Of a DNA stretch of 64,000 bases, positions 18,994 through 61,276 are shown piece by piece. Source of the stretch: Haloprofundus salinisoli. Its GTDB lineage: Archaea > Halobacteriota > Halobacteria > Halobacteriales > Haloferacaceae. The stretch covers positions 1,426,001 to 1,490,000 of the forward strand of contig NZ_CP083663.1 of assembly GCF_020097815.1 (NCBI RefSeq). The letters are read 5' to 3'. Under the pieces are notes generated by a model, which worked only from the letters and a program-made list of their open reading frames with translations, ran no database searches and was not told the origin of the DNA. A program made the position numbers and the translations under genes. Each line of letters starts with the position of its first letter. Position 1 is the stretch's first letter.

Positions 18994-19641
18994 TCACTCC
19001 TCCGGCCGGAGCATGCCCCGGCCCTCGAACACCTTGCCGAGGCGGTACATCGAGGCGACGATGGTGTCGCAGGCGGGTCGAACCGCGTCCTTCGGGAGGA
19101 AGCCGACCGAGAAACCGGCGACTTCGAGCATCGGGAGGTCGTTCGCGCCGTCGCCGATTGCGACGGTCTGGCTCATCTCGACGTCGAGTTCCTCGGCGAG
19201 CCGTTCGAGTTCGCGGTCCTTTGTCCCCTCGATGAGCGGCCCCTCCGCCTCGCCGGTCAGCCGCCCGCCCTTCACGGGGAGGCGATTGGCGACGATGGTG
19301 TCGACGTCGACCCCCTCCGCTTCCAGTGCAGATTCGACGCCGCGCTCGAACCCGCCGGTGAGGATGGCGGTGTGGTGGCCGTAGTCGTTGAGGCGGTCGA
19401 TGAGTTTCGCCGCGCCCGGTCGGAGTTTCACCTCGTCGTACGCCTCCTGGGCGCGTTCTTCTTCCAGTCCTTCGAGCAGCGCCGCGCGGTCGTAGAGGCT
19501 CTCCGCGTAGCTGAGTTCGTCGTTCATCGCTCGTTCGGTGATGTCGGCCATCCGGTCGGCCACGCCTTTCTGCTTGCCGAGGAGCACCGTCATTTCCGAG
19601 TCCGAGAGCGTTCCGTCGAAGTCGAACGCGACGAGTTTCAT
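18994..19641 (-). CDS. serB: Phosphoserine phosphatase
   Basis: The 215-residue HAD-superfamily enzyme releases phosphate from phosphoserine, the last step of serine synthesis. Motif I is DFDGTLSDSE (Asp7 nucleophile, Asp9), motif II is ILTGGF, and motif III is AIGDGANDLPML. The helical cap between motifs I and II is the size expected for SerB. The ATG at 19641 gives the standard MKLVAFDFDGT start; upstream codons in frame are non-homologous. It is divergent from serA across a 304-base gap. Confidence 0.93.
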   Translation of the reverse strand: MKLVAFDFDGTLSDSEMTVLLGKQKGVADRMADITERAMNDELSYAESLYDRAALLEGLEEERAQEAYDEVKLRPGAAKLIDRLNDYGHHTAILTGGFERGVESALEAEGVDVDTIVANRLPVKGGRLTGEAEGPLIEGTKDRELERLAEELDVEMSQTVAIGDGANDLPMLEVAGFSVGFLPKDAVRPACDTIVASMYRLGKVFEGRGMLRPEE

Positions 19642-19945
19642 GCCGGGTGAGAGGGGGGCCGCGGGTTTGAAACCACCCGAAACGGGCACGCTTCGCCCCC
19701 CACTTTCCGCCGGCGTCGTTCTCGATGGGAGGAGTCGAACGCGGACGATTGGGTCGTATCCCGACTCTCGCCGACGTGCTCGTCGACCGGTCCCGCCGAC
19801 CCGAAGCGATGCACGTCGCCGAACCCTTCGCCCGATTCGACGCGCCGAACTGGGCACATGCGTGCATATTCACCCACCCGCACCACCTCTCGCCAAGCAT
19901 GCCTGTGAAGAAACCCTTAACCGCTATCCGAAAAAGCGTAGACTC
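19642..19945. promoter_or_regulatory. 304-base serB-serA divergent intergenic region
   Basis: This gap separates divergently transcribed serB and serA and must hold both promoters. Near serA, CCTTAACCGCTATCC lies about 20-30 bases before the ATG at 19946 and is a plausible TATA region. A 74-codon open frame on the plus strand (19725-19949) has mixed basic composition and overlaps the serA start, so I do not treat it as a gene. No clear operator palindrome was found. Confidence 0.5.
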
Positions 19946-21565
19946 ATGAAGGTGCTCGTCACCGACCCGATCGCGGACGCCGGACTCGACCGACTCCGCG
20001 AGGCGGGTCACGAAGTCGAAACCGCCTACGACGTAGCGGGCGACGAACTGCTCTCGGCCGTCGCCGACGCCAACGCGCTGGTCGTCCGCTCGGGAACCGA
20101 CGTCAGCCGCGAGGTGTTCGAGGCCGCCTCCGACCTCGTCATCGTCGGCCGCGCGGGTATCGGCGTCGACAACATCGACATCGACGCCGCCACCGACCAC
20201 GGCGTCATCGTCGCCAACGCGCCCGAGGGGAACGTCCGCGCCGCCGCCGAGCACACCGTCGCCATGGCGTTCGCCGCCGCGCGCTCGATTCCGCAGGCGC
20301 ACGCCCGTCTGAAGGTGGGCGAGTGGGCCAAGAGCGACTACCTCGGTACCGAAGTCAACGGAAAGAACCTCGGAATCGTCGGCTTCGGCCGCGTCGGACA
20401 GGAAGTCGCCAAACGCCTCGGCAACCTCGGCATGGGCCTCGTCGTCTACGACCCCTACATCTCCGAGGAGCGCGCCGAGCAGTTCGGCGCGGAACTCGTC
20501 GACGAACTCGACGCCTGCCTCGCCCGCGCGGATTTCCTCACCATCCACACGCCGCTTCTCCCTGAGACGCGCGGGATGATCGGCGAGGACGAACTCGAGA
20601 CGTTCGGCCACGGGTACGTCGTCAACTGCGCGCGCGGCGGGATCATCGACGAACCGGCGCTCGCGGCCGCCGTCGAGGACGGCACCGTCGCCGGCGCGGC
20701 GCTCGACGTATTCGAGGAGGAACCGCTTTCGGAAGACTCGCCGCTCGTCGGCGTCGACGACATCATCGTCACGCCGCACCTCGGCGCGTCGACGGAGGCC
20801 GCCCAGGAGAGCGTCGCCGTCGACACCGCCGAACAGGTGCTCGCGGCGTTCGAGGAGGAGCCCGTCCTCAACGCGTTGAACGCGCCCTCGGTCGACGAGA
20901 AGGCGTTCCCGCGCATCAAGCCGTACATCGGCCTCGCGGAGACCGCCGGCAAGATCGCGGCGCAGGTGTTCGGCGAACGCGTCTCCGAAATCGCAGTCGC
21001 CTACGACGGCGACATCGCCGCGGAGAACGTCGAACTCGTCACCGCGAGCGGTCTCAAGGGCGTCTTCGAACCGCTGGAGTGGCAGGTCAACGCGGTCAAC
21101 GCCCCGCATCTCGCCGAGGAGCGTGGCATCGACGTCACCGAGAGCAAGAGCAGACAGAGCGAGGACTTCCAGAGCCTCGTCACGGTCACCGTCGGCGACG
21201 GCGAAGAGACGCTCTCCGTCAGCGGCACGCTCTTTGCGGGCGAGGAACCGCGTATCGTCCGCATCGACGGCTACCGCGTCGACGCCGTCCCGCACGGGCA
21301 CATGCTCGTCGCGCGAAACTACGACAAGCCGGGCGTCATCGGTCTCATCGGCACCGTCCTCGGCGACCACGACGTAAACATCGCGGGGATGTTCAACGCC
21401 CGCGAGACCCGCGGCGGCGAGGCACTGACCGTCTACAATCTCGACTCGGCGGTACCGGAGGAAGCCGCCGAGGCGCTTCTGGCCGACGACCGCATCATCG
21501 GCGTCCACACCATCATCCTCAACGGCGACGCCGAGGCGCGCCGACTCGACATCGCCGCGGAGTAA
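19946..21565 (+). CDS. serA: D-3-phosphoglycerate dehydrogenase
   Basis: The 539-residue enzyme oxidises 3-phosphoglycerate to 3-phosphohydroxypyruvate using NAD, the first step of serine synthesis. It contains the Rossmann motif GIVGFGRVGQEVAKRL, the catalytic arginine in CARGGIIDEPAL (about Arg230), the acid-histidine pair ending in TPHLGASTEAAQ (about His278), an intervening allosteric domain, and a C-terminal ACT domain (ARNYDKPGVIGLIGTVLGDH). This is the long, probably serine-regulated form. The open frame extends upstream into the serB gap, but MKVLVTDPIADAGLDRL is the family start. Confidence 0.96.
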   Translation: MKVLVTDPIADAGLDRLREAGHEVETAYDVAGDELLSAVADANALVVRSGTDVSREVFEAASDLVIVGRAGIGVDNIDIDAATDHGVIVANAPEGNVRAAAEHTVAMAFAAARSIPQAHARLKVGEWAKSDYLGTEVNGKNLGIVGFGRVGQEVAKRLGNLGMGLVVYDPYISEERAEQFGAELVDELDACLARADFLTIHTPLLPETRGMIGEDELETFGHGYVVNCARGGIIDEPALAAAVEDGTVAGAALDVFEEEPLSEDSPLVGVDDIIVTPHLGASTEAAQESVAVDTAEQVLAAFEEEPVLNALNAPSVDEKAFPRIKPYIGLAETAGKIAAQVFGERVSEIAVAYDGDIAAENVELVTASGLKGVFEPLEWQVNAVNAPHLAEERGIDVTESKSRQSEDFQSLVTVTVGDGEETLSVSGTLFAGEEPRIVRIDGYRVDAVPHGHMLVARNYDKPGVIGLIGTVLGDHDVNIAGMFNARETRGGEALTVYNLDSAVPEEAAEALLADDRIIGVHTIILNGDAEARRLDIAAE

Positions 21566-21599
21566 TCAGAGCCCGAGCAGTCGACGGTCAGAGCCCGAG
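21566..21599. repeat. Short direct repeat duplicating a gene's C-terminal codons
   Basis: TCAGAGCCCGAG occurs at 21566-21577 and again at 21588-21599, a 22-base period. The second copy is the stop and last codons (LGL-stop) of the minus-strand coiled-coil gene. The first copy, just beyond the stop, also reads RRLLGL-stop in another minus-strand frame. It looks like a small duplication of the gene's 3' end. Confidence 0.55.
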
Positions 21600-21974
21600 G
21601 AGGCGGCGGATGGGATGTTCGTCCCGGCGGCGACGCTTTCGATTCTCGTCGTCCCGGATTCGCTGTTCTCGCAACAGCTCCTCGTAGTGGTCGATAACGG
21701 CCTGTCGCTCGGATTCGAGGTGTTCGAGTTCCGCTTCGAGGTACCGGACGCGCGCCTGCAACGCTTCGAGCTGCTGTCGGTCCGCCGCCGCCCCGGGCGA
21801 CAGTCGACCGTTGGAGTCGTCCGCGCCTCCGCGTGACGGCTGCGGCGGGCGGCGGTCGTCGAACCCGCCGTCGGGTTTCGGCAGTCGTCTCGGCCGCTGC
21901 GTCGACGCGCGGATGGGATACGTTCGGGAGGTCGGTTCGCTGACGGTACCAGTCGGGAGGTCGGAGAGCGACAC
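21588..21974 (-). CDS. Basic coiled-coil protein, paralogue A
   Basis: This 128-residue protein has three parts: an N-terminal motif LSDLPTGTVSEPTSRTYPI, a P/R-rich linker, and a heptad-like helix (LEALQARVRYLEAELEHLES, about residues 75-95) followed by a very basic tail ending in PIRRLLGL. I choose the GTG at 21974 because it aligns exactly with the ATG of the neighbouring paralogue (MPLSGFPTGTVSKSNSRTYPA); the longer TTG start does not. The helix suggests dimerisation and the tail suggests nucleic-acid or membrane binding. No family is recognised. It is convergent with serA. Confidence 0.7.
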   Translation of the reverse strand: MSLSDLPTGTVSEPTSRTYPIRASTQRPRRLPKPDGGFDDRRPPQPSRGGADDSNGRLSPGAAADRQQLEALQARVRYLEAELEHLESERQAVIDHYEELLREQRIRDDENRKRRRRDEHPIRRLLGL

Positions 21975-22086
21975 GCGTTCTGGTATGTCATTAGGTAACA
22001 AAAGTCTGCGTCAGACTGCTGTCACACTTATTCACGAATAGTGGACTCTCGCTTTCGTTGGAGTGTCAGCGGGGACCGCCGACCGC

Positions 22087-22671
22087 TTAGGGCCAGAACA
22101 GTTTCCGGAGGAGGTTGTCGTTCTTCTTCGGGAGGAACCGACCGCCCTGCTGCTTCGGCAGCAGGTTCTTGTCGCCGTTCCGGTCGCGGAGCGGCTTTCG
22201 ACTCCCGATTCGACTCTCTGCTCGGTTTCGAGTCCGAGTTTCGCGCTTCGAGACGTTCTCGCCCCTCTTCTTCGCGCGTCCGTCGACGTCGACGACGGTT
22301 CGTTCGGCCCTGAGGCGGTCGAGTTCGGACTCCAGTCGGTGGATGCGCGCTTCGGCCGCTCCGAGACGGTCCAACGGGGTTACAGAGGAGTCGACGGCCG
22401 TCGGCGGCGAGGCAGACGACGACTGCGACGACTGCGCCGACGCCGTCGACGAGGAGACTACGACCGGCGCACGCGTGCTCTCGTGAGCGTCGGCGGCGTC
22501 CGGCGGAGTACCGACATCGACGACGTCGACGGACTGCGCGGTTCGTTGCGGCAGACGGCTCTGTTCCGTCTCCTGACGCCGCCCGGAGGTTCGTTCTCGG
22601 CGTTCTCCGGCCGGATAGGTTCGACTGTTCGATTTACTCACGGTGCCCGTCGGAAAGCCCGATAGCGGCAT
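22087..22671 (-). CDS. Basic coiled-coil protein, paralogue B
   Basis: This 194-residue protein repeats the plan of its neighbour: N-terminal LSGFPTGTVSKSNSRTYPA, a longer S/T/V-rich linker, a coiled-coil (EARIHRLESELDRLRAERTV, about residues 117-136), and a Lys/Arg-rich tail ending in NLLRKLFWP. The shared N-terminus, coiled coil and C-terminal hydrophobic-basic end imply duplication of a whole gene. An in-frame start 15 codons upstream also exists. The two paralogues point the same way with an 85-base gap, and thrC lies upstream on the same strand. Function is unknown. Confidence 0.7.
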   Translation of the reverse strand: MPLSGFPTGTVSKSNSRTYPAGERRERTSGRRQETEQSRLPQRTAQSVDVVDVGTPPDAADAHESTRAPVVVSSSTASAQSSQSSSASPPTAVDSSVTPLDRLGAAEARIHRLESELDRLRAERTVVDVDGRAKKRGENVSKRETRTRNRAESRIGSRKPLRDRNGDKNLLPKQQGGRFLPKKNDNLLRKLFWP

Positions 22672-22763: not shown

Positions 22764-24074
22764 TCAGCGTCCGAGCGCACCTTTCAACTTCGAGACGACA
22801 CCGCCGCTTCGACCTTCGAGATGGCGGAGCACCGCGTCGGTGTCGTTGGGAACCGGTTCGGGGTCATCACCCGCCTCGAAGGCGGCGTCGGGGTCTTTCA
22901 GGAGGTGGCCGGTGGTGAGACAGACCACGTCCTCGTCGGGGTCGACGACGCCCCGATTCCGAAGTTTCTGGAGGCCGGCGACGGAGGCGGCGGACGCGGG
23001 TTCGACGCCGATACCCTCCTGTGCGAGTGCGCGCTGTGCCGACGTGATCGACGCGTCGGAGACGGCGACGGCGGTGCCGCCCGTCTCCCGGATGCCGGGG
23101 AGCGCCTTCGGCGCGTTGACCGGGTTGCCGATACGAATCGCGGTGGCTTTGGTCTCCACCTCGTCCCACCGTCGCACTTCGTCGGCGTCGTTCTCGACGG
23201 CTTCGACCATCGGCGCTGCGTTTTCGGCCTGCACGCCGGTGAGCTTCGGTACGTCGCGCGGGTGAAGCGCACCGCTGGCGACGAGTTCGCGGAACGCCTT
23301 GTACAGCGCGGCGGTGTTGCCCGCGTTGCCGACGGGGAGGACGATGCGGTCGGGATACCGGCCCTCGTCCTCGTAGAACCGTTCGAGAATTTCGAGGCCG
23401 ATGGTCTTCTGGCCTTCCAGCCGGAAGGGGTTCAGCGAGTTGAGCAGATAGGCTTCGTCGCGGGCGGCGAGGTCCTGGACGATGTCGAGACAGCTGTCGA
23501 AGTTGCCGTCGACCTCCAGAATCCGCGCGCCGTGGAGACTCGCTTGCGCGATCTTCCCCGCGGCTACCTTGCCCTCCGGGAGGAGCACGAGCGTCTCCAA
23601 TCCGGCGCGGGCACCGTAGGCGGCGAGGGCGGCGCTCGTGTTCCCGGTCGACGCACAGGCGAGGCGGTCGACGCCCAACTCTTCGGCGACGCGGACGCCG
23701 ACGGTCATCCCTCGGTCTTTGAAACTCCCGGTGGGGTTCATCCCCTCGTGTTTGATGCGGAGGCGGTGGACGCCCACCGACTCCTCCAGTCGGGGTACTT
23801 CGTGGAGCGGCGTGTCGCCTTCGGGGAGACTCACGCCCTCCTCGAACGGGAGCGCGGCGTTGTAGCGCCAGACGCCGCGCCGGCCGTCGTCGAAGTCGTC
23901 CCAGGTCGGCAACTCGGCGTACCGGACCTCGAGCAACCCGTCGCAGTCGTCGCAGGTGTAACGCACCGTCTCGAACGGCGCGAACGTCTCGCCACACTCG
24001 ATACACTCCAACCAGACGCCGTCGTCGGCCACCTCGGGGGCCGGTTGTGACTCCTGTGAGAGCTTCAGACTCAT
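22764..24074 (-). CDS. thrC: Threonine synthase
   Basis: The 436-residue PLP enzyme converts O-phosphohomoserine to threonine. An N-terminal zinc-ribbon-like segment (Cys24, 27, 41 and 44) precedes the catalytic domain, a common archaeal variant. The PLP lysine is in NPTGSFKDRGMTV (Lys119) and the phosphate-binding loop is VGNAGNTAALYKAF. The C-terminus is a short acidic and basic tail. The ATG at 24074 gives MSLKLSQESQ; the longer frame adds basic non-homologous residues. It shares homoserine-derived substrate with metX in this cluster. Confidence 0.95.
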   Translation of the reverse strand: MSLKLSQESQPAPEVADDGVWLECIECGETFAPFETVRYTCDDCDGLLEVRYAELPTWDDFDDGRRGVWRYNAALPFEEGVSLPEGDTPLHEVPRLEESVGVHRLRIKHEGMNPTGSFKDRGMTVGVRVAEELGVDRLACASTGNTSAALAAYGARAGLETLVLLPEGKVAAGKIAQASLHGARILEVDGNFDSCLDIVQDLAARDEAYLLNSLNPFRLEGQKTIGLEILERFYEDEGRYPDRIVLPVGNAGNTAALYKAFRELVASGALHPRDVPKLTGVQAENAAPMVEAVENDADEVRRWDEVETKATAIRIGNPVNAPKALPGIRETGGTAVAVSDASITSAQRALAQEGIGVEPASAASVAGLQKLRNRGVVDPDEDVVCLTTGHLLKDPDAAFEAGDDPEPVPNDTDAVLRHLEGRSGGVVSKLKGALGR

Positions 24075-31908: not shown

Positions 31909-31953
31909 GTCGGGCACCCGTCCGACTCGCGCCACTCGGCACGTTACGTTGAG

Positions 31954-48806: not shown

Positions 48807-48920
48807 GCTCGCACCTCGAACGCCGCGCGTATCACCGTTGCGCTCTCACACACCCACGACGCGCTCACGCAGTTCCGATCCACCCAATTGGACACTGCGT
48901 TTACACTCGTCTGACGCGAG

Positions 48921-48954
48921 GCAGACAGCCGTCTGCTGCCTTTTGATATATCTG
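48921..48954 (+). promoter_or_regulatory. Palindrome and TATA box before the 54-residue membrane protein
   Basis: GCAGAC-AGCC-GTCTGC (48921-48936) is followed at once by TTTTGATATATCTG (48941-48954), a strong TATA candidate about 28 bases before the ATG at 48977. The palindrome occupies the BRE position, so a regulator bound there could block or recruit TFB. It also lies upstream of divergent hisB. Confidence 0.55.
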
Positions 48955-51280: not shown

Positions 51281-52420
51281 GTGGTAGAAGCGCTTCTCGT
51301 CGTCGGAGTTCTGGTCGCGGTCTTCGTCGGATTCAACATCGGTGGCTCCTCCACCGGCGTCGCGTTCGGTCCCGCCGTCGGCAGCGGCGTCGTGAACAAA
51401 CTCGTCGCCGCCGCGCTGATGGCGGTGTTCGCGTTGCTCGGCGGGTGGACCGTCGGCCGAGAAGTCGTCCAGACGATGGGCGGCGAAATCGTCCCGCAGA
51501 GCCAGTTCACCCTCGTCGCCAGCGTCGCCGTTCTGTTGTTCGTCGGTCTGGCGCTGCTCGTCTCGAACACGTTCGGCGTTCCCGCCTCCACGTCGATGAC
51601 GGCCGTCGGCGCTATCGCCGGACTGGGTCTGGCGACCGACACGCTGAACCAGCCGAAGATGCTCGAAATCATTTCGTGGTGGGTCGTCGCGCCGATTCTG
51701 GCCTTCTGGGTCTGTGCCGTCATCGGGCGCTACATCTACCCGTATCTCGACGCTCGGTTCGTCATCGACAGCAGCGACGGCCCGCTGATAGAGTACACCC
51801 CGCTGCCGCGCCTCGGCCCGGGGACGACGATGCGTGAACTCGGGGGGACGGTGCTCGTCGTCGCCATCGCCTGCTACATGGCGTTCTCGGCGGGGGCGTC
51901 GAACGCCGCAAACGCCGTCGCCCCGCTGGTCGGCAACGGCGCGGTCCCCATCGACCAGGGGGTGTTGTTGGCCGGCGGCGCGATCGCGCTCGGCGCGTTC
52001 ACCATCGCGCGGCGGACGCTCGACACCGTCGGCAACGACCTCACCGACCTCCCCATCCTGGCGGCGCTCATCGTCGAAGTCGTCAGCGCCACGCTCATCG
52101 CCGTGCTGTCGGCGTTGGGCATCCCGGCGAGTCTCGCCGTGAGCGCGACGATGAGTATCGTCGGTCTCGGGTGGGGACGGGCGACCCGGACGGTGACGCT
52201 CGGGCAGGCGGTTCGCGGCGAGGGGCCGAACGTCTCGGTGAACGCGCTGGCGGCCGAGCGACAGGAGACGGTTCCTCGCGTCGGCGACGAGAGCGACGAA
52301 CTCACCGCCAACGACCTGTTCAATCCGGGAACGACCGGGCGAGTGATCTTCTTCTGGATTCTCACGCCGTCGCTGTCTGCGGTCGCGTCGTTTCTCCTCT
52401 TCACGTTCGTCCCACTGTAA
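51281..52420 (+). CDS. PiT-family inorganic phosphate transporter, copy 2
   Basis: The 379-residue paralogue starts at a GTG (VVEALLVVGVLVAVFVGFNIGGSSTG) and has the second signature AFSAGASNAANAVAPLVGNG. It is collinear with copy 1, and three DNA blocks of 70, 55 and about 30 bases are identical between them, while flanking sequence differs widely. It may import phosphate, or have specialised in another oxyanion. Copies probably share a transcript, given the 67-base gap. Confidence 0.9.
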   Translation: MVEALLVVGVLVAVFVGFNIGGSSTGVAFGPAVGSGVVNKLVAAALMAVFALLGGWTVGREVVQTMGGEIVPQSQFTLVASVAVLLFVGLALLVSNTFGVPASTSMTAVGAIAGLGLATDTLNQPKMLEIISWWVVAPILAFWVCAVIGRYIYPYLDARFVIDSSDGPLIEYTPLPRLGPGTTMRELGGTVLVVAIACYMAFSAGASNAANAVAPLVGNGAVPIDQGVLLAGGAIALGAFTIARRTLDTVGNDLTDLPILAALIVEVVSATLIAVLSALGIPASLAVSATMSIVGLGWGRATRTVTLGQAVRGEGPNVSVNALAAERQETVPRVGDESDELTANDLFNPGTTGRVIFFWILTPSLSAVASFLLFTFVPL

Positions 52421-52522
52421 CCGCCGTTCGCCGCCGGGGTTCCGAGTTCTGTGGCCCGAACCGCCACGCAACTTCGGGCTGAACAGCAAAGTCTAATGGT
52501 ATGGGTATCGAACCACCGGGTG

Positions 52523-52912
52523 ATGCCCACGGTAGAATACCTTAACTACGAAGTACTGGACGACCAGGGCTGGGAAATGGACGACGAGGACCTCTTCGAC
52601 AACGCGGCCGACGCGGGCCTCGACGACGAAGACTACGGGTCGCTCGACGTCAACGAGGGCGAGTACATCCTCGAAGCTGCCGAGGCACAGGGCTACGACT
52701 GGCCCTTCTCCTGCCGTGCAGGCGCGTGTGCAAACTGCGCCGCTATCCTGTACGAGGGCGAAATCGAGATGGACATGCAGCAGATCCTCTCCGACGAGGA
52801 AGTCGACGACAAGAACGTCCGTCTCACCTGTATCGGTTCGCCCACTGCAGACGAGGTCCGCATCGTCTACAACGCGAAGCACCTCGACTACCTGCAGAAC
52901 CGCGTCATCTAA
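52523..52912 (+). CDS. fdx: Haloarchaeal plant-type [2Fe-2S] ferredoxin
   Basis: The 129-residue acidic protein has the halophilic N-terminal insertion ([20 protein letters not shown]) and the cluster ligands Cys64, Cys69, Cys72 ([11 protein letters not shown]) and Cys103 (RLTCIGS). It is the abundant electron carrier for 2-oxoacid oxidoreductases in haloarchaea. The ATG at 52523 gives [16 protein letters not shown], the known N-terminus. A strong hairpin follows the stop. Confidence 0.96.
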
Positions 52913-52947
52913 CAAACGCCGTACGACGAGCGTTTAACGTGACGCCC

Positions 52948-52970
52948 GTTCTCGGCCTCGGGCCGAGAAC
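52948..52970 (+). terminator. Hairpin downstream of the ferredoxin gene
   Basis: GTTCTCGGCC-TCG-GGCCGAGAAC is a perfect ten-base-pair stem with a three-base loop, 36 bases after the ferredoxin stop codon. It could stabilise or end the abundant ferredoxin mRNA. There is no clear T-run after it. It also marks the edge beyond which base composition becomes AT-richer. Confidence 0.6.
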
Positions 52971-53164
52971 CGAGCCCCCATATCCGAACATTTCGAGGCT
53001 GCTGCGTAGCTGTTAGCGTAAGCGACGGACTCCCCGCAGAACCGTCCTCGTCTACTACTTCAATCGATACCGAGCCAGTTGAAATCGCTGGTCGGTGATA
53101 CTCTGTTGAGACTGTGCTGAATTCTGCGCGCAGATCCAGCAAAGCTTCTCGGAAAGAGAACGGA

Positions 53165-53837
53165 TTATGGAGTCGTCCGTGATGCTATCATCGTATGTAC
53201 TGTGCCTAGCATGAATGTGTCGAGGGGTTCAACTTCTTCGAAGACATCATCGATAACCAGACGAACGTTTTCATTCGGATTCCAATTTGCGTACCAACGT
53301 AAGAACCTCTTCAGTAGCGGATTGAAGACACGCAGTGGTCCGGTCTGAAATTCCTGTATCTCAAGAACTCCAAGTGAGGCACCCGGTTTAAGTGCAGAGT
53401 GAACGTTCCGGACGGCCCGTTCAACGTCAGGCATTACACTCAACGCGAGCGTTGTGATTGCTGCATCATACGGGCCGTCAAGGTCAGCCGTAGTTGCGTC
53501 GGCGCGGAAGACCTTGATATTTTCCCACCCATGATTCTCGACACGCTCTTCGGCTTTTTCGATCATCTCGGGGCTATAGTCGATTGCAATCAGGGAACCT
53601 CGCTCACCGATTGCCTCCCGAATTGTACCGAAATTCACCCCCTGGTCCACAGCCGATTTCCAGTACCCTATCACCATCTTCAAGATTGAGTTGTGTGATT
53701 AGTTCTTTACGGAGCGGTTCGAAATCTTGTTCGCTCATTCGATACCAATTGCTCCAGCGGTTCCAAACGGTCTCACTGCGTTGGAGATGGGAATCATACT
53801 CCGTTTCGGCTTCGGGTTGACGATCTACGCCAGTCAT
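53165..53837 (-). pseudogene. Frameshifted class I SAM methyltransferase
   Basis: Two overlapping minus-strand frames join into one methyltransferase. From the ATG at 53837, the N-terminal part reads MTGVDRQPEAETEYDSHLQR and reaches motif I (VLEIGCGPG). At a run of five G (53638-53642 on the plus strand as C) the frame shifts, and the rest (NFGTIREAIGERGSLIAIDYS ... MLGTVHTMIASRTTP) continues in the other frame. Removing one base gives 223 residues, a normal family length. Either the gene is broken or the homopolymer was misread. It resembles UbiE/menG-like methyltransferases. Confidence 0.75.
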
Positions 53838-54281
53838 GAATATTGAGCCATACACACAATAGGCTGGTTCGTGGCTTGATTCCTTGCCGCGGGGACGACC
53901 GTGGTTCCCACTGCATACAACCTCTGTATCTCGTACGCTGTTTCTGACACATCCTTGGTAGTTCACAGAGATGCTGCTGAATAGAGAGCGCGTATCGGCT
54001 AGCGTCGGACAGTTCAAGCGTTTTCCGGTCAGATGCTGGGTTTTCACGAATACTTTCTCTGTCTTAGCCAGTACTATGTCTTCCCACCGAAAGACGATGT
54101 GATGAGAGAACTATTGCTAGGCAATTCTTGACATGACTACCGCTATTTCTCAATCTGAATAACATCCTCCTGAGTGAATAGCGACTGACTTGGCACAGAG
54201 ATGGTGACCTCCAATTCGTTACTCCATGACACCACAGTAGCTACCCGAATGCTTTTCTTCACAAAGATTAGCATTCAGACA
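53838..54281. other. 444-base AT-rich gap with a copy of the island repeat
   Basis: No convincing gene lies here. It contains copy 1 of the island repeat (53912-53996) and, further on, an inverted repeat CGCTATT ... AATAGCG (about 54140-54183). The AT-rich stretch close to 54282 should hold the lipoprotein promoter. A minus-strand frame extending upstream of the methyltransferase here reads as non-coding. Confidence 0.5.
53912..53996. repeat. Island repeat, copy 1
   Basis: The left motif CCTCTGTAT (53921) is followed by ACGCTGTTTCTGACA, and the right motif TGCTGAATAGAGAGCGCGTA starts at 53975, 54 bases after the left motif. The same spacing occurs in copy 3. The right motif TGCTGAATA and the left TATTCAGCA (as seen in copies 2 and 4) are inverted relative to each other. 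The family is unrecognised. Confidence 0.6.
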
Positions 54282-54674
54282 ATGACTATGGAAAAGCAAT
54301 ATCTTTCTCGCCGTTCGCTCCTCCCATTTCTCAGCTCGCTTCTCTTGGGTCTAAGCGGTTGTATGAACTCCTTCAGAAGTAGAGGAGATATTCTTCTCAT
54401 AAATCGAACTGGGGAGAACCGTGAAATTCGGATGGCAGTAAAAAATCCTAGTGATGAAGTCGTCTTTGATCAAACATATGAACTCCCGTCCGGTGAAGCG
54501 GCCACTGAGTCAGATATCTTGGGGTGGAAACAATATACTGTAGAGTTAGTCATCGACGGCACAGAGAGTGCGATGGCAGCAAATACGTTTCCTGTCCCAA
54601 ATTGCTGGTCTCCAAAGTATTACATTTCTATTGAGGGTGACTACTATGCGAATTTCTCAATTGATTGTCCGTGA
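54282..54674 (+). CDS. Small AT-rich lipoprotein of unknown function
   Basis: The 130-residue protein has a twin-arginine-like signal (SRRSLLPFLSSLLLGLSGC) with a lipobox Cys, then a small beta-rich domain (ILLINRTGENREIRMAVKNPSDEVVFDQTYELP). Such domains are found in many haloarchaeal lipoproteins. Two ATGs two codons apart (54282 and 54288) are possible starts; the longer frame from 54201 is unlikely. Codon use is AT-rich, unlike core genes, supporting acquisition with the island. Confidence 0.7.
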   Translation: MTMEKQYLSRRSLLPFLSSLLLGLSGCMNSFRSRGDILLINRTGENREIRMAVKNPSDEVVFDQTYELPSGEAATESDILGWKQYTVELVIDGTESAMAANTFPVPNCWSPKYYISIEGDYYANFSIDCP

Positions 54675-54800
54675 GATGCTCCTGCTGGCAGTTGTACGTG
54701 CAAATGGAGCAGTGAGGACTGTCGCGAGTGCTACAATACCAGAAACATACACCATCCTGCTCTCCCCGTCAGAGTGTCTTTACGGCCAAAGCTACTGTTG

Positions 54801-54840
54801 CGCTGAATACACCCTCTGTATTCAGCACGCTATTACTGAG
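54801..54840. repeat. Island repeat, partial copy 2 with a perfect hairpin
   Basis: GCTGAATACA-CCCTC-TGTATTCAGC (54802-54826) is a perfect ten-base-pair stem. It contains the left motif of the island repeat, followed by ACGCTATTACTGA. The right motif is not found at the expected 54-base distance; instead the recombinase gene ends there (54858), so the copy is truncated or was the site of insertion. Confidence 0.6.
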
Positions 54841-54857
54841 GGGCGTTTGAGGAGTTT

Positions 54858-55562
54858 CTACCGGTGGTGGACTCGACGCAGCGCATCAGCGGTCGCTGTC
54901 CCGGAGATACGGATGTATTTCTGTGCAGTCGCCAGATCGCTCCACCCCATCAGAGCTTGGAGCGGCACCGGGGCAACACCCTTGTAGGCGTGATAGCTGG
55001 CGGCGGTCGCTCGCAGACAGTGTGGATAGATCCGACCCGAGAGGTCAGCCGCGTTCGCGGCAGCCTGCACTCGTCTATTGATTGTTGACCGCGACCGAGG
55101 AAACCTATCGTAGCGGTTGGCAAAGCGTTCAACACACAGCTCCAGCCGAAGCGAGAGGTCAAATGGGATGAGTCGAGCCGAGGCCACGGTCTTTGGATGC
55201 CAGCGGGACGCGACAGCATCCTCGACAGAGAGGTCGTCGTTGTGGGTGGCTTCCTGTCGGGCCTGTCGTCGGCAGTACCCGCACCGGCACGGTTCGTGTT
55301 GTGGGATACGAATCGTTCGGCGGTTCCAGTTCACCCACGCGGTCTGAAAGTGCGCGATTTCACCAGCCCGAAGCCCGAGTCGCCCTGCGATGAGACAGAT
55401 AAATCGCGCCTCAAAATTGTGTAGCGCTGGAAGTGTCGAACACGCTTCCAGCAAGAGTTCGAACTGACGGTCGGTGAGGACATCCTCATGGGTGTGCCGG
55501 GTCGTGAGCGCCCGCCGGTGGCGATCCGCCCATTCAGTCGCAGGTTGGTTGTGATGGGACAC
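54858..55562 (-). CDS. Tyrosine recombinase/integrase
   Basis: The 234-residue protein has the catalytic layout of tyrosine recombinases: Arg65 in GLRAGE, His181-x-x-Arg184 in PHCLRATAAS, Trp207 in place of the second histidine (MGWSDLATAQKYI) and nucleophile Tyr216; Lys124 (WHPKTVASAR) is a candidate for the catalytic lysine. A CRCGYC insertion (about 92-97) is common in haloarchaeal phage-type integrases. The start is GTG. It is the only recombinase in the island and may have mobilised it, but no attachment sites were identified. Confidence 0.85.
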   Translation of the reverse strand: MSHHNQPATEWADRHRRALTTRHTHEDVLTDRQFELLLEACSTLPALHNFEARFICLIAGRLGLRAGEIAHFQTAWVNWNRRTIRIPQHEPCRCGYCRRQARQEATHNDDLSVEDAVASRWHPKTVASARLIPFDLSLRLELCVERFANRYDRFPRSRSTINRRVQAAANAADLSGRIYPHCLRATAASYHAYKGVAPVPLQALMGWSDLATAQKYIRISGTATADALRRVHHR

Positions 55563-55686
55563 CCGGTGCCATGCTCATGCTGGTGGGTTGGGAGTATCGT
55601 TCGGTCGTGCTGCAACAGCGCGCGTATGTCCTACCTATTCGGTGCTTGTCCGAAATTAATTAGTCAACCATATTCTCGATAAATCA

Positions 55687-55697
55687 AATTTATATAG
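55687..55697 (+). promoter_or_regulatory. TATA box of the small membrane protein
   Basis: AATTTATATAG lies about 25 bases before the ATG at 55718, suited to a leaderless transcript. It stands in an AT-rich 155-base gap between the divergent recombinase gene and this small gene. Confidence 0.6.
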
Positions 55698-55717
55698 AAC
55701 CTGTAGAAGTAGTGGCC

Positions 55718-55912
55718 ATGGATACCGAAGCGTCACTAGTGGCAATACGTCGGTGGCTCATGTTCATCTCGTTACTGCTCATAGTTCAGGTCTACTATAC
55801 CGCAGTAAGCAACTACTCAATCCCCCCGCGTGGGGATGTTATGGGACCAGCTCTCATCGTTCTCGGGTTCCTCGTAGCCGTTTCTCTCTTCTTGTCTTTC
55901 ACAGACGATTAG
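55718..55912 (+). CDS. Small two-span membrane protein in the island
   Basis: The 64-residue protein (MDTEASLVAIRRWLMFISLL ... LIVLGFLVAVSLFLSFTDD) has two membrane spans. A GTG two codons upstream is an alternative start. A good TATA box at leaderless spacing supports expression. No family is recognised; with no neighbouring partner its role is open. Confidence 0.65.
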   Translation: MDTEASLVAIRRWLMFISLLLIVQVYYTAVSNYSIPPRGDVMGPALIVLGFLVAVSLFLSFTDD

Positions 55913-55942
55913 TAGACCCTGAGGATTCAGATTTTATCGGAC

Positions 55943-56022
55943 ACACCCTCTGTATTCACCACGTCGTTTGTGACAGCATTTGAATGGGTTTCAGCGACTG
56001 TGCTGAATAGAAAGCGCATATT
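55943..56022. repeat. Island repeat, copy 3
   Basis: The left motif CCTCTGTATTCACCACG begins at 55947 and the right motif TGCTGAATAGAAAGCGCATA at 56001, exactly 54 bases later as in copy 1. TATTCACCAC and GTGCTGAATA can pair with one mismatch across about 42 bases. It fills most of the 234-base gap between the small membrane gene and the sensor kinase. Confidence 0.65.
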
Positions 56023-56146
56023 CATCAGGCTGGATTGCTCCGAATCTCCCGGTGACTTCATCCGATAGTTAATGCGACCTCTACGACAGCGCAGGGTCGC
56101 AGCGGAAATGCCGTTTAGTGTACCGTCAGGGTTGAAGCTCAGAAGT

Positions 56147-58561
56147 TCAAGTTCTCACCGGGGGAAGAGTAAACCAAAACGTTGCGCCTTCTCCGGGCTC
56201 AGACTCAACCCAGATATTGCCATTGTGACGCTCTACTATTCGCTCGCAGAGCGCGAGGCCGATGCCAGTTCCCTGGTGCTCGTCGGCGGTGTGAAGCCTC
56301 TGGAAGACCTCAAAGACTCGCTCGCTGTCGTCAGGATTGATACCGATTCCCTCGTCGCTTACCGAGACGGCCCACTTCTGGCCACGTTCCTCTGCGGCAA
56401 CATGCACTCGCGCCGGCTTGTCACCACTATACTCGAATGCGTTGTCTAGGAGGTTCTGAAACAGTTGGCGGAGTTGTCCTTGATCCCCCTCAACGTGAGG
56501 GAGGGATTCAGAGGTGATCTCAGCATCCGTTTCCGCTATTTTCACTTGAAGGTCGGTACGGACGTTCGCGAGGACGTCATCCAGACTAACTGGTTCAAAG
56601 GGCTCACCACGGCTCTCGACTCGGGAATATTTTAGGAGCCCTTGAATCATATCACGCATTCGATCAGCGCCATCCACCGCGAACTCGATGAACTCACGTC
56701 CAGCCTCGTCAAGTTCGCCGGCGTACCGTTGCTCGACCAGTTGGAGGTAGCTTGACACCATCCGGAGCGGTTCCTGAAGATCATGAGAGGCGGCATAGGC
56801 GAACTGCTCAAGACGCTCGTTCGATTCCTCAAGTTCCTCGATCAACTCACCTAACCGCTGCTCTCGGTGTTTACGTTCGGTAACGTCTTGGACTGCCCCG
56901 CGGAGCGAGACAACTTCCCCATCCTCAACTTCCGGACTCCCTTGGATACGGAGCCAGCGTATCTCTCCGCTAGGGGTTCGGATTCGAGATTCTATATCGA
57001 ATGGTTCGCCGGCGTCAAGTGCCTCCTCAACTGCATTCTTGACGATCGGCCGGTCCTCTTCGTAATAGACATCGAGCGCCTCATCCAATGGCGGTTCCTC
57101 ATCGTAGGACACTTCCAAGATATCGAAGAGATGATCTGTCCAAAATACTTCCTTTGTATTCACGTCAATCTCCCAACCGCCGACATCAGCGATTTGCTCG
57201 GTCTTTTCGAGCAAATCCAGCGTCCGTTTGAGTTCCCACTCATACTGTTTGCGCTCGGTGATATCGCTCGCCATACCGATCCACTCGACGATGTCACCGT
57301 CCTCATCCAGTATCGGCACCGCACGCGAGAACGTCCAGCCCAAACTCCCATCGACCTGCTCCACCTGATGTTCCATCTCGAAGGTGCTTTTGGTTCGGAT
57401 AGCTTCGTCAATGACCTCCGTTACGCGCTTCTGGTCGTCTGGGTGAATGTATTTATCAAGCCAATTGCTGGTCGGTTTGTGTGTATCGTTCATGAACTCC
57501 TTGCCTTCAAGGCGGTGCATTTCGCTCCAACCGGGGCTCATGCGATATACTACATCCGAGCTAGCGTTGATCAACGTCCGGAATCGCTCCTTGCTCTTCT
57601 GAAGCGCCTCTTCGGCTTCCTTGCGCTCGGTGATATCGCGTGTCGTTCCGGTGACGGCTTCGACTTCCCCCTCGTCGTTGAGTACAGGCGCAAAGATGTA
57701 GTCGTAGATTCGGTGACCGAGCTCGGCGTGTTGAAACGCTACCTCGCCGCGGATGGGTTCTTTCGTCTCTACGACCTGGTTAATCTCGCGTTCGTGCATC
57801 TCCGCGTGCCACGGCTCGTAGCCGTTTTCCTGTAGGGTCTTTCCGATGGACTCTTCGTAGGTTTGACCCCACATCTCTAGCAGTGCATCGTTGGCGAATA
57901 TGAAGCGGTAGTCGAGGTCGAACGCGTATACAAGGTCGGGAGTACTGGAAATGATGGTCTCGTAAAGCCGCCGTTCCTGCTCGGACTCAGCGGCCACTTT
58001 CGTCATCCCCGTCTCAGCTTCCGTGCGCTCGGTGCTATCAGTATTCGCAGGCGACTCCGCATTTTCGAAGGCGTATGCGATTGTTACTCCAAACTCTGCG
58101 AGCGATTCTCGCTCAAGCGCGCCAAATCCTTGCGACCGGTTAGTAGCCAGATGCAAGACTCCGTACATAGCCTCCTCGTAAACGAGGGGAATGACCGCGC
58201 AGGTTCGATAGTCATGTTTGAGGGCATGCTCGCGCCATTCCTCGCAAGGCGGGTCGGTAACGAGATTCTGTACAACTGTGATCTCTTGCGTGCGCACTGC
58301 CTCGTTTGTCAGTTCCGATTGAGGTGACTCCTCGGTAATAGTCTCTCCATTGAGTGTATTCTCCGCGATCCCGGCGGAGGCTGTCGGAATCTTCTCCTCT
58401 TTCTCTGGGTTATAGCGGTCAATCCACGCAAAGGAGTACAACTCCGATGCTACGAACTGCTCACAAATGCGTTGCCGTATCTCGTTTTTGGTGGTCGTGA
58501 TTAACGCTCGGGTGACTTCTCCTATCACTGCGTGAATAGAGTGTTGCCCACCATGGCTCAT
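56147..58561 (-). CDS. GAF/multi-PAS sensor histidine kinase
   Basis: The 804-residue kinase has, in order, a GAF-like domain (about 10-180, CAVIPLVYEEAMYGVLHLAT), three PAS/PAC units (about 200-320, 325-445 and 450-570, each ending in a TERK-type linker), HisKA with His593 in YAASHDLQEPLRM, and a HATPase_c domain (FQNLLDNAFEYSGD, DEGIGINPDD, GTGIGLALCERIVERH). There are no membrane spans, so it senses cytoplasmic signals such as redox or light-related ligands. No response regulator is adjacent. The gene is AT-richer than the core. Confidence 0.94.
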   Translation of the reverse strand: MSHGGQHSIHAVIGEVTRALITTTKNEIRQRICEQFVASELYSFAWIDRYNPEKEEKIPTASAGIAENTLNGETITEESPQSELTNEAVRTQEITVVQNLVTDPPCEEWREHALKHDYRTCAVIPLVYEEAMYGVLHLATNRSQGFGALERESLAEFGVTIAYAFENAESPANTDSTERTEAETGMTKVAAESEQERRLYETIISSTPDLVYAFDLDYRFIFANDALLEMWGQTYEESIGKTLQENGYEPWHAEMHEREINQVVETKEPIRGEVAFQHAELGHRIYDYIFAPVLNDEGEVEAVTGTTRDITERKEAEEALQKSKERFRTLINASSDVVYRMSPGWSEMHRLEGKEFMNDTHKPTSNWLDKYIHPDDQKRVTEVIDEAIRTKSTFEMEHQVEQVDGSLGWTFSRAVPILDEDGDIVEWIGMASDITERKQYEWELKRTLDLLEKTEQIADVGGWEIDVNTKEVFWTDHLFDILEVSYDEEPPLDEALDVYYEEDRPIVKNAVEEALDAGEPFDIESRIRTPSGEIRWLRIQGSPEVEDGEVVSLRGAVQDVTERKHREQRLGELIEELEESNERLEQFAYAASHDLQEPLRMVSSYLQLVEQRYAGELDEAGREFIEFAVDGADRMRDMIQGLLKYSRVESRGEPFEPVSLDDVLANVRTDLQVKIAETDAEITSESLPHVEGDQGQLRQLFQNLLDNAFEYSGDKPARVHVAAEERGQKWAVSVSDEGIGINPDDSERVFEVFQRLHTADEHQGTGIGLALCERIVERHNGNIWVESEPGEGATFWFTLPPVRT

Positions 58562-58662
58562 TCTATCAGTCTATCTCTCAGAATTGGTTTACCCTTGTCG
58601 ATTTCCGGAGACGAGATTATACCGACAGAGAGGGGCTGGAATAAGTTGCGGTCGGTTGCGGT

Positions 58663-58760
58663 ATACATCCTCTGTATTCAGCACGCGATTTCTGTCGACT
58701 TCCTAGGGGTCCACCGAAGCCGGAGTGGACACCACGAGAACGTGCTGATAGAGACGCACA
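58663..58760. repeat. Island repeat, divergent copy 4
   Basis: The left motif ATCCTCTGTATTCAGCACGC (cctc at 58669) continues GATTTCTGTCGAC, matching the other copies. A degenerate right motif GTGCTGATAGAGACGCAC lies about 74 bases later, so the interval is 20 bases longer than in copies 1 and 3. It lies between the sensor kinase and the toxin gene. Confidence 0.5.
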
Positions 58761-58833
58761 GGAAGACACTCCGAAGAACTCCAAGAGAAGAACCAGCCCA
58801 CTGCGATTTCCCACGCCGCCTGCGTCGAACCGC

Positions 58834-59187
58834 TCAGTTGAGTCCGAGGCTCAGTTTCAGTGCGTCGTCTACCTGACTCATCGTTCCTGCGTCCAGACTC
58901 CCGACGACCGAGTGAATCCGCTTCTCGATAGATACGACTCGAATCTGGTCGAGACGAACCGACGAGTCCCTCCCGAACGGCGAGTCGTCCGCTTCGACCA
59001 GTACCTCGAACGGGTAGCCTCGGTACGTACCAGTCGCGGGTGCGACGAGGGTCGTACTCGAATTTGCGTTCCCGACGTCGTTCTGGACGACGACCGCCGA
59101 GCGGGTCTTCTTCATCTCGTGACCCTCGGCGGGGTCCAACCGGACGATGACGACATCACCGCGTCGAACGTTCGTCTTCTCGTTCAT
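58834..59187 (-). CDS. PemK/MazF-like toxin
   Basis: The 117-residue protein begins VRRGDVVIVRLDPAEGHEMKKTRSAVVVQND, the hallmark of MazF/PemK endoribonucleases that cleave mRNA, and has the expected small beta-barrel length (ending SQVDDALKLSLGLN). Its ATG overlaps the stop of the antitoxin gene by four bases, the usual antitoxin-first order. It probably stabilises the island against loss. Confidence 0.9.
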   Translation of the reverse strand: MNEKTNVRRGDVVIVRLDPAEGHEMKKTRSAVVVQNDVGNANSSTTLVAPATGTYRGYPFEVLVEADDSPFGRDSSVRLDQIRVVSIEKRIHSVVGSLDAGTMSQVDDALKLSLGLN

Positions 59188-59432
59188 TCACTCAGCCCAC
59201 GCCACGCCTCGTCAGACGTGTCGTCCCACTCCCCGGCCAACGACTCCGCACTTTCGGATGCTTCCCGATAGGCAGCGGCGAGTTCGTCTCCGTCGGGTCG
59301 GTCGTTTTCGACTTCTACCACCGCGACGGTCACGCGCTTGTTTGCGTATTCCGTCCCGAGGTAAATCCGACCCCGGTCGTCGGTGTCGTTGGTTCGCAGG
59401 TCTCGGGCGTCTACTTTCACCGTGTTGCCCAC
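59184..59432 (-). CDS. Antitoxin partner of the PemK/MazF-like toxin
   Basis: The 82-residue protein begins, from a GTG, VGNTVKVDARDLRTNDTDDRGRIYLGTEYANKRV, a swapped-hairpin AbrB/MazE-like DNA-binding pattern, and has an acidic C-terminal tail (AYREASESAESLAGEWDDTS) suited to wrapping the toxin. It precedes and overlaps the toxin gene (ATGA), so the two are co-translated and probably autoregulated. The family is inferred from layout more than from strong sequence signatures. Confidence 0.8.
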   Translation of the reverse strand: MGNTVKVDARDLRTNDTDDRGRIYLGTEYANKRVTVAVVEVENDRPDGDELAAAYREASESAESLAGEWDDTSDEAWRGLSE

Positions 59433-59872
59433 TATGACCCACGGTCTGATAACACTTACACACTATTACCCACAAAACACGACTGATGAGCCACTTGCCG
59501 AACGAACCGCGTCATCTAAAGCGCAACGCGCTCTCACCGAGTATATTTTCGCCGCATCCGCGGTAGCTGCAGTCTCTGCTCTCCGCCCGAGAGCGCCCGC
59601 GCTCGCTTCCCGCAGCCTACGATCGGTTCACTGGTCGGCCTCGTTGCCGCGGTGAATTCTTCTCGTGGGGTACCCCGGAGTTGCAATCCCCTCTTTCGGC
59701 ATCTCTTCTCTCCACTCACCGCAGGTGTCGAACGGCGTCTTAGCGGTGCAGACCGTCTTCTACGCCTATTATTCTATTGTAAAATAATTATTAAACTAGT
59801 GGATTGTATCTTATAATACATAATAGATAAGTGTGAGTGTATTGCCCACTACTATCGTAGTTTCACATAATT
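59433..59872. other. 440-base gap before the GntP permease
   Basis: I see no gene here. The last 100 bases are very AT-rich, with TATCTTATAATACATAA at about 59806-59822, a likely TATA region for the permease, and an imperfect inverted repeat ATTATT ... AATAAT near 59768-59790. The front part, next to the antitoxin start, must hold the toxin-antitoxin promoter. Base composition changes back to core-like at about 59880, so this gap is the island's right border. Confidence 0.5.
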
Positions 59873-61276
59873 ATGCTAGTAGAACCACATTTGACGCAGA
59901 TTGGCGGTGCGCACAGTCCGCTGATCGCCTTCGTCGTCGGACTCATCTCGGTCATCGCGCTGTTGGTGTACTGGGACCTTCCGGCGTTCGTCGGTCTCAT
60001 CATCGCGACGCTCGTCGTCGGTATCGTCGCGCCGCAAGTGGCGTTCGCCGAAGTTCCGTCGCGGATCGCTCAAGCGTTCGGTGAGGGAATGGCCGAGATC
60101 GGTATCCCGATCCTGATGGCGGCGGTCATCGGCAAGTCGATGATGGCCAGCGGCGCCGCCGAACGCATCGTTCGCGGGTTCACATCGCTGACGGGCAGCG
60201 AGAACTCCGACTTCGCGCTCTGGGGCAGCAGTTCCTTTCTCGCCATCCCGGTGTTCTTCGACAACGTCTTCTACCTGATGGCGCCGCTGGCGCGGTCGAT
60301 GCGCGCCCGCGTCGGCAAGAACTACGCGCTCTATCTCGTCGTCGTCGGCGCGGGCGCGGCGACGACGCACGTGTTCGTTCCACCGACGCCCGGCCCGCTC
60401 GCCGTCGCGGCTGAGATTCCGGGTACGAACCTCGGAGTGACGATTCTCGTCGGCCTCATGGTCGCGCTCCCGTCGGCGTTCGTCGGCGGTATCGGCTACG
60501 GCCGATGGATCAACAAGCGGATAGACATCCCGCTCCGCGACGCGATGGACACCAGCGGCGACGAACTGAGCGAACTCGCCCAGCGGTCGAATAGCCAACT
60601 TCCCGGCGTGTTCGAGGCGTCGCTGCCGATCCTTCTGGCCGTCGTCCTCGTCGCCTCCGACACGGCGGCGACGACGTTCCTCGGCGAGAACGCGCCGATT
60701 CGCTCGGTCACGGGCTTCCTCGGCGACCCGAACTTCGCGCTGACCGTCGCCGCCATCGCCGCGGCACTCACCTACCGCCGGATGCGCGCGCTCTCGGACG
60801 AAGCGTGGGGCGACGAACTCACCGAGGCGCTGAAATCGGGCGGTAACATCGCCGCCATCACCGCCGCAGGCGGCGCGTTCGGCGCGCTGCTCGCTGCCGC
60901 CGGCATCGGCGATTACATCACCAACATCCTCTCGGAACTCGGCATCGGCGTGCTCGTCACCGCGTGGCTCATCGCCGCGACGGTCCGCATCGCGCAGGGG
61001 TCGGCGACCGTCGCCATGCTCACGACGGCCGGCATCATGGCCGGGTCGGGGGCAGTCGCCTCGCTGTCGGTCAACCCGGCGTACCTCGTGATGGCTATCG
61101 GCGCGGGCGGCAACATCTTCTCGTGGTACAACGACAGCGGCTTCTGGCTCGTCAAGGAGATTGGCGGCCTCACGCAGACGGAGACGCTGAAGACGTGGAC
61201 CGCGTTGACGACTATCGTTTCGGTCATGGGTCTGTTGATGGTGCTTCTGCTCTCGTGGGTCCTTCCGCTGACGTAA
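59873..61276 (+). CDS. GntP-family permease
   Basis: The 467-residue membrane protein has about 12 spans and GntP-family features: AEIGIPILMAAVIGKSMMASGAAERIVR, SSFLAIPVFFDNVFYLMAPLARSM and VFVPPTPGPLAVAAEIPGTNLG. Members import gluconate or related hydroxy acids with protons; no sugar-acid enzymes are nearby to identify the substrate. GC-rich codon use matches the core genome, so the gene lies just outside the island. Confidence 0.92.
   Translation: MLVEPHLTQIGGAHSPLIAFVVGLISVIALLVYWDLPAFVGLIIATLVVGIVAPQVAFAEVPSRIAQAFGEGMAEIGIPILMAAVIGKSMMASGAAERIVRGFTSLTGSENSDFALWGSSSFLAIPVFFDNVFYLMAPLARSMRARVGKNYALYLVVVGAGAATTHVFVPPTPGPLAVAAEIPGTNLGVTILVGLMVALPSAFVGGIGYGRWINKRIDIPLRDAMDTSGDELSELAQRSNSQLPGVFEASLPILLAVVLVASDTAATTFLGENAPIRSVTGFLGDPNFALTVAAIAAALTYRRMRALSDEAWGDELTEALKSGGNIAAITAAGGAFGALLAAAGIGDYITNILSELGIGVLVTAWLIAATVRIAQGSATVAMLTTAGIMAGSGAVASLSVNPAYLVMAIGAGGNIFSWYNDSGFWLVKEIGGLTQTETLKTWTALTTIVSVMGLLMVLLLSWVLPLT

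Follow-up and report, generated by a model that had tools for sequence, protein, structure and literature searches.

A thrC-linked family of small coiled-coil proteins in haloarchaea shares a promoter element with ftsZ1 and is a candidate part of the division machinery

The window, by which we mean the whole 64,000-nucleotide stretch of the Haloprofundus salinisoli genome that was analysed, harbors two adjacent genes, whose products P1 and P2 sequence comparison assigns to an as yet undescribed family of small coiled-coil proteins from haloarchaea. What is new here is an 18-bp promoter element which this family has in common with ftsZ1. Because the element in front of P1 and P2 also precedes ftsZ1, the two proteins are candidate new parts of the division machinery. 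Our preferred reading, to which we give an even chance, is that P1 and P2 belong, as copies duplicated in Haloprofundus, to a thrC-linked coiled-coil family which is controlled by the regulator CdrS together with ftsZ1 and which would work as an accessory scaffold of the division ring at the membrane.

The gene pair and its family

Both open reading frames were found at the coordinates given in an earlier note on this DNA, on the minus strand (Table 1). Along that strand the gene order is thrC, P2 and P1, followed by the convergent serA. For P1 the GTG start at 21974 is favored since its distance from the operator-like element (see below) is the same as in other family members, 44 nt, and P2 is read from the ATG at 22671 because the element lies 44-45 nt upstream there, as in other members. 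Elsewhere in the window, at 52000-60000, the G+C content drops from ca. 0.67 to 0.52-0.57 and long reading frames are few, with an 804-aa ORF at 56150-58561; this region looks like an acquired island.

Table 1. Features of the window, with positions counted from its first nucleotide.
Feature	Position	Strand	Details
serA, phosphoglycerate dehydrogenase, convergent neighbour	19616..21565 (span searched; true start inside)	+	Pfam 2-Hacid_dh, PGDH_inter, ACT; synteny
P1, 128-aa coiled-coil protein, GTG start	21588..21974	-	VSLSDLPTGTVSEPTSRTYP...EHPIRRLLGL
Operator-like element of P1	22010..22027	-	GTGTGAC-AGCA-GTCTGAC; centre 44 nt before GTG
P2, 194-aa paralogue of P1, diverged copy, ATG start	22087..22671	-	MPLSGFPTGTVSKSNSRTYP...NLLRKLFWP
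Operator-like element of P2	22708..22725	-	GTATGAC-CGTT-GTCTGAC; centre 45 nt before ATG
thrC, threonine synthase, conserved upstream same-strand neighbour	22764..24074	-	NCBIfam TIGR00260, 293 bits vs cut-off 167; synteny
One-mismatch element before hisB	48909..48926	-	112 nt before hisB start at 48806; IGPD domain in G004 orthologue

The direct sequence match between P1 and P2 within their own genome is insignificant (E ca. 0.1). Their paralogy, claimed in the earlier note, is secure because of the congeners, a phylogenetic tree and the shared promoter element, and it is real in all five Haloprofundus genomes examined, each of which has both genes. In a tree of 24 proteins P2 sits on a long branch and clusters with P1 to the exclusion of 14 relatives, with a support of 83/96 that does not reach the starred level. 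Both proteins lack two residues of the N-terminal motif that are present in most other Haloferacaceae members. These data are most simply explained by a duplication in the lineage of Haloprofundus.

A codon comparison of P1 and P2 across the five Haloprofundus genomes agrees with the three-part plan that had been proposed, in that a conserved N-terminus, the coil and a conserved hydrophobic-basic tail are under selection and the linkers are near-neutral. For P1, pN/pS was 0.08 in codons 1-20, 0.28 in the coil, 0.04 in the last 10 codons and 0.81-0.84 in the linkers; the corresponding values for P2 were 0.32 (N-terminus), 0.63 (coil), 0.28 (last 30 codons) and 0.70-0.75 (linkers). Some details of the proposal need correction: the 20-residue N-termini, described as nearly identical, share 13 of 20 residues by eye, and P1 reads LPTGTVS where FPTGTVS had been given for both proteins. 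Each protein does have the single coil ascribed to it, that of P2 being short and, at the above pN/pS, weakly constrained. In P1 the first 20 codons (window 21915-21974) are conserved also at synonymous positions, where pS is 0.12 in the five species as compared to ca. 0.5 over the remainder of the gene, and no such conservation is seen in P2; a further signal at the nucleotide level, perhaps for translation or regulation, may therefore reside in this stretch.

AlphaFold2 predicts for P1 a single helix of residues 60-127 (pLDDT ca. 97 over residues 71-110) preceded by a disordered N-terminal half, and in the predicted structure of a Haloferax gibbonsii member a coil (residues 68-126) is accompanied by a separate C-terminal helix (139-164). 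The fraction of ILMFVW residues is 0.32 in the last 14 positions and 0.08 in the linker before them (34 family proteins). The hydrophobic moment was above that of shuffled sequences at p<0.05 in 7 of 41 family tails (median p 0.20); by this measure the tails are only weakly amphipathic, while their hydrophobic enrichment is clear.

A family profile of 35 rows (A2) was searched in 147 relatives at E<=1e-6 and detected members in 73 genomes, covering 32 of 59 genera, with some matches arising by construction because some A2 rows come from the same species. No member was found in 74 of the 147 genomes with this profile and threshold, and the family is therefore not universally needed. In 65 of the 73 genomes the best match has the orientation of thrC and follows it at a distance of no more than 2 kb; in 7 it is located elsewhere, and the one genome left has no thrC match. 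The gene thrC is present in 142 of the 147 genomes. A set of 80 named thrC loci, selected as the best of 418 and hence non-random, contains 46 in which a family match (E<1e-3) is no more than 2 kb from thrC and one more (L123) in which the distance is ca. 4.8 kb. The gene is normally single-copy, with two copies in Haloprofundus. Searches with P1 or P2 as single queries gave matches in 94 and 63 of the 147 genomes, respectively, at E<=0.1, many of them unrelated coils or frames with stops; these matches were set aside and the family counts are based on profile and synteny.

The N-terminal motif PTGTVS...RTYP, which the earlier note described as conserved in the pair, is found in Haloferacaceae members (18 of 39 named loci) and is not general to the family. 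Members from the Natrialbaceae, and others, are devoid of PTGTVS and RTYP and keep the coil with a Y-E signature, nearly invariant in A2, and the short hydrophobic tail, which are the features conserved family-wide. The suggestion that no described family covers these proteins held up: none of the member rows gave a convincing match to a known family in Pfam, NCBIfam, PHROGs or PDB profiles. The haloarchaeal coiled-coil region DUF7310 (PF23991) was rejected, as P1 gave a weak coil match of 16.7 bits (cut-off 40) and the true DUF7310 gene of the genome is located elsewhere (C1:673425, 103 bits). CENP-Q, GAS, ZapB, Mto2 and similar entries were generic coil matches, all below their cut-offs; the PDB profile matches (best E 0.007, a T-cell receptor chain) were due to chance or zipper tags, and PHROGs returned single-member matches only. 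No function for the family was found in the open literature searched, a scope that leaves subscription papers and preprints aside.

The promoter element and the CdrS regulon

The element was first seen when the 110 nt upstream of the family start codons were compared. In 36 of the 39 named family loci the heptamer GTCTGAC is found at a distance of 36-66 nt upstream of the start codon, a count for which the frequency of the heptamer in these loci predicts 0.16. It constitutes one half of a symmetric 18-bp element, GTCNGAC-N4-GTCNGAC; together with the preceding half, the family element reads GTNNGAC-N4-GTCTGAC, i.e. two 7-bp palindromes one helical turn apart. The pattern GTCTGAC-N5-YTTTT is found exactly twice in the genome under study, before P1 and before P2, and 80 times in 60 genomes, with 22 of these matches (17 genomes) just downstream of thrC. 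A reversed-pattern control gave 1-4 matches as compared to 40-50, which overstates the enrichment because the dinucleotides of the control differ from those of the pattern that it reverses.

A matrix was derived from 18 promoters of the family, to which each sampled genus contributed one or two and Haloprofundus none. Among 31 further family loci that we chose as a check (8 named loci outside the matrix and 23 from other genomes), not all of which are independent since some share contigs or species with matrix sites, the element was the top-scoring position in 29 and ranked second and fourth in the others (L013 and L033, respectively). The best site had a shifted register in four of the check loci (L104, L016, L028, L017). 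In locus L034, where the family gene lies by serA and thrC is 20 kb away, the element is still present. Family promoters of the Natrialbaceae type contain three blocks, GTC(A/G)GAC..GTCTGAC..GACTGAC, followed by TTTT (L138, L142, L148, L152, L155, L161, L170-L172, L174, L177, L181, L183), as if for a higher-order regulator complex.

When FtsZ and DacZ loci were scanned with the family matrix, the site upstream of ftsZ1 ranked first of ca. 4000 positions in 7 of 12 ftsZ1 loci; in L207 and L208 the best position of the locus lies 55 nt before ftsZ1. No ftsZ1 site was detected by this matrix in three of the 12 loci (L205, L210, L212). The element was found at dacZ in one of 12 genomes (L189, 53 nt before the start), and the matrix revealed none at dacZ in any of the five Haloprofundus genomes. 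The scan also gave no site at the start of ftsZ2 itself. The best position in 10 of 11 ftsZ2 loci (L213, L214, L216-L223) is a related palindrome, GTAAGAC-N4-GTCTTAC, ca. 270-310 nt before ftsZ2 and, in three inspected loci, upstream of a cdrS-like ORF. It has the same 7-4-7 architecture as the family and ftsZ1 element, but with other outer bases. The palindrome is near-invariant and is a candidate CdrL or autoregulatory site.

CdrS is a ribbon-helix-helix regulator that is co-transcribed with ftsZ2 in Haloferax volcanii, and 18 ChIP-Seq sites with a symmetric motif were reported for it by Liao et al. 2021 (PMC8406309). Table 1 of that paper includes ftsZ1 (-50), dacZ (-47), hisB, threonine ammonia-lyase, a PRC-domain gene, HVO_2968A (-42) and others, such as psmB, panA and cdc48d, and proteasome and amino-acid genes are also among the targets. 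Repression of cdrS is described to lower SepF and HVO_0739; HVO_2968A is not marked 'down' in the repressed strain in this table. Since the letters of the CdrS motif are given only in a figure of PMC8406309, we matched the element to CdrS by targets and position, in a comparison that comprised ftsZ1, hisB, threonine ammonia-lyase, the PRC gene and dacZ.

The genes that carry the element in Haloprofundus include four known CdrS targets of the published table, ftsZ1, hisB, threonine ammonia-lyase (TIGR01127 over cut-off) and the PRC-barrel gene, the last three with elements conserved in the genus. At the PRC gene the element lies 50 nt before the start codon, as compared to a printed TSS distance of 72 (PMC8406309). 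Of ten conserved or near-conserved sites in genome G004, these three correspond to CdrS targets and seven do not: one precedes a gene for a DUF7093 protein (L243), one has a candidate ORF (L242), one overlaps an ORF (L245), one is 130 nt away from a candidate ORF that by eye is dihydrodipicolinate synthase-like (L247), and L248, L249 and L250 have no convincing target gene.

Perfect copies of GTCNGAC-N4-GTCNGAC were also observed elsewhere. One lies 44 nt before the start of a gene for a DUF7139/DUF7140 membrane protein, ca. 16 kb from ftsZ1 (L230, L231, L234, L237); this protein is plausibly the counterpart of HVO_0739, though HVO_0739 is absent from the CdrS ChIP table. Another separates two divergent genes, one encoding 93 aa and the other a protein of 310 aa for which no Pfam match exceeds its cut-off; either gene could equally be the target (L232, L235, L236, L239). 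Two more loci without mismatches, L228 and L233, have no recognised target. A one-mismatch element at 31909-31926 of the window, without a convincing downstream start, is probably a chance match.

HVO_2968A offers a link from the family itself to CdrS. Its number falls between HVO_2968 and HVO_2969, and because HVO_2969 is thrC3 (PMC4300041), this is the slot by thrC which the family occupies in Haloferax loci. The CdrS site at -42 (PMC8406309) compares with 45 nt from element centre to ATG in these loci. Table 1 of PMC8406309 lists HVO_2968A as a conserved hypothetical protein with no function printed there. Judged by locus number and site distance, the family very likely includes it. The 18-bp operator, in turn, is very likely a CdrS site, and membership of P1 and P2 in the CdrS regulon appears highly probable in view of the element shared with ftsZ1, the presence of element-bearing genes on the ChIP list and that of HVO_2968A on the same list. 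Such membership is no proof of a role in division, since the targets of CdrS include proteasome and amino-acid genes.

Proposed role and alternative explanations

In the mechanism that we propose, P1 and P2 would be transcribed under CdrS together with ftsZ1. The family protein would dimerise via its coil as a parallel coiled-coil dimer, its short hydrophobic-basic tail would seek out the membrane, which is anionic in archaea, and a partner at the division site would be recruited by the N-terminal peptide, PTGTVS...RTYP in the Haloferacaceae, held on a long flexible tether; opinion on this combination of dimer, tail and peptide is about equally divided in our minds. Several observations speak against it, namely the control of metabolic and proteasome genes by CdrS, the missing 'down' mark of HVO_2968A on cdrS repression, the half of the searched genomes in which no member was detected and the weak amphipathicity of the tails, as do the differing distances at the PRC gene and the lack of the element at dacZ in Haloprofundus. 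The resulting accessory scaffold could link or space parts of the division ring at the membrane. P1 may represent the ancestral form, with P2 having diverged in coil and tail and perhaps binding a second partner. More tentatively, at somewhat less than even probability, the family would be a component of the haloarchaeal division ring that has so far escaped recognition, an organiser with a coiled coil and a membrane tether which uses its N-terminal peptide to join FtsZ1 or SepF/Cdp proteins, and GTCNGAC-N4-GTCNGAC would be the order-wide CdrS operator. An adaptor or scaffold, as suggested in the earlier note, is still the best reading of the anatomy; that note had missed the promoter element which ties both genes to the CdrS regulon.

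The conserved position next to thrC allows for a different role, namely that of an accessory to amino-acid metabolism under the control of CdrS, which would assemble threonine synthase and related enzymes or regulate them, with CdrS coupling growth to division. The gene directly follows thrC in the 65 genomes mentioned above, and threonine ammonia-lyase and hisB, both with the element in Haloprofundus, are among the CdrS targets of PMC8406309. We nevertheless consider this unlikely: the family gene has its own promoter with an adjoining operator, the operator is kept where the gene has moved away from thrC (L034), and thrC occurs in many genomes in which the family is not detected (142 versus 73 of 147).

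A coiled-coil protein that associates with DNA or RNA, e.g. in the nucleoid, and is only incidentally division-regulated would fit the net charge of P2 (+13) and the basic linkers of many members, which stand out among the typically acidic proteins of haloarchaea. However, at a pN/pS of 0.7-0.8 the basic linkers are almost free to change whereas the hydrophobic tail is fixed, some members are acidic, with charges to -12, and Pfam finds no DNA-binding domain in family members, so that we rate this as quite improbable. At a marginally lower level still we place an adaptor or scaffold of a general kind that has no connection to division, with CdrS control being incidental or the element belonging to another ribbon-helix-helix regulator such as CdrL. 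Related factors do have similar sites, since the cdrS promoter carries the related palindrome in 10 of 11 loci and CdrL was bound upstream of cdrS-ftsZ2 in Halobacterium (Darnell et al., PMC7439475). The sites of the family, with GTCTGAC, are nonetheless ftsZ1-like and not cdrS-like, and the set of genes with the element fits the CdrS ChIP list (PMC8406309).

Significance and comparison with known division proteins

Accessory division parts of FtsZ-dividing haloarchaea are still being discovered, and the family described here is a concrete candidate for such a part. Its candidacy is based on the occurrence in about half of the sampled genomes, the ftsZ1-type operator, the apparent binding of CdrS in H. 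volcanii and a scaffold-like shape with a putative membrane-seeking tail. Because the operator can be read from sequence, the CdrS regulon becomes searchable in any haloarchaeal genome, and if the assignment is true GTCNGAC-N4-GTCNGAC could allow the archaeal division regulon to be compiled with no data other than sequence.

Similar to the role proposed for the family, the bacterial division accessory ZapB (PF06005) is a small coiled coil acting in division; the comparison concerns the way of working and implies no homology. Among 35 family members one matched ZapB at E<=0.001 (best E 6e-4), and one Haloferacaceae protein scored 18.5 bits as compared to a cut-off of 31.5; these matches are not taken as homology because such scores are expected of any coil. 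ZapB is not known to possess the conserved N-terminal peptide and the tail. SepF, the PRC-barrel proteins CdpB1 and CdpB2, and CdpA are globular or multi-pass proteins that are unrelated in sequence to the family. CdpB1 is presumably HVO_1691, and CdpA we take to be HVO_0739. Among the CdrS targets reported for H. volcanii is a PRC-domain gene (PMC8406309), and in Haloprofundus both the PRC gene and the gene for the DUF7139 membrane protein carry the same element as P1, P2 and ftsZ1.
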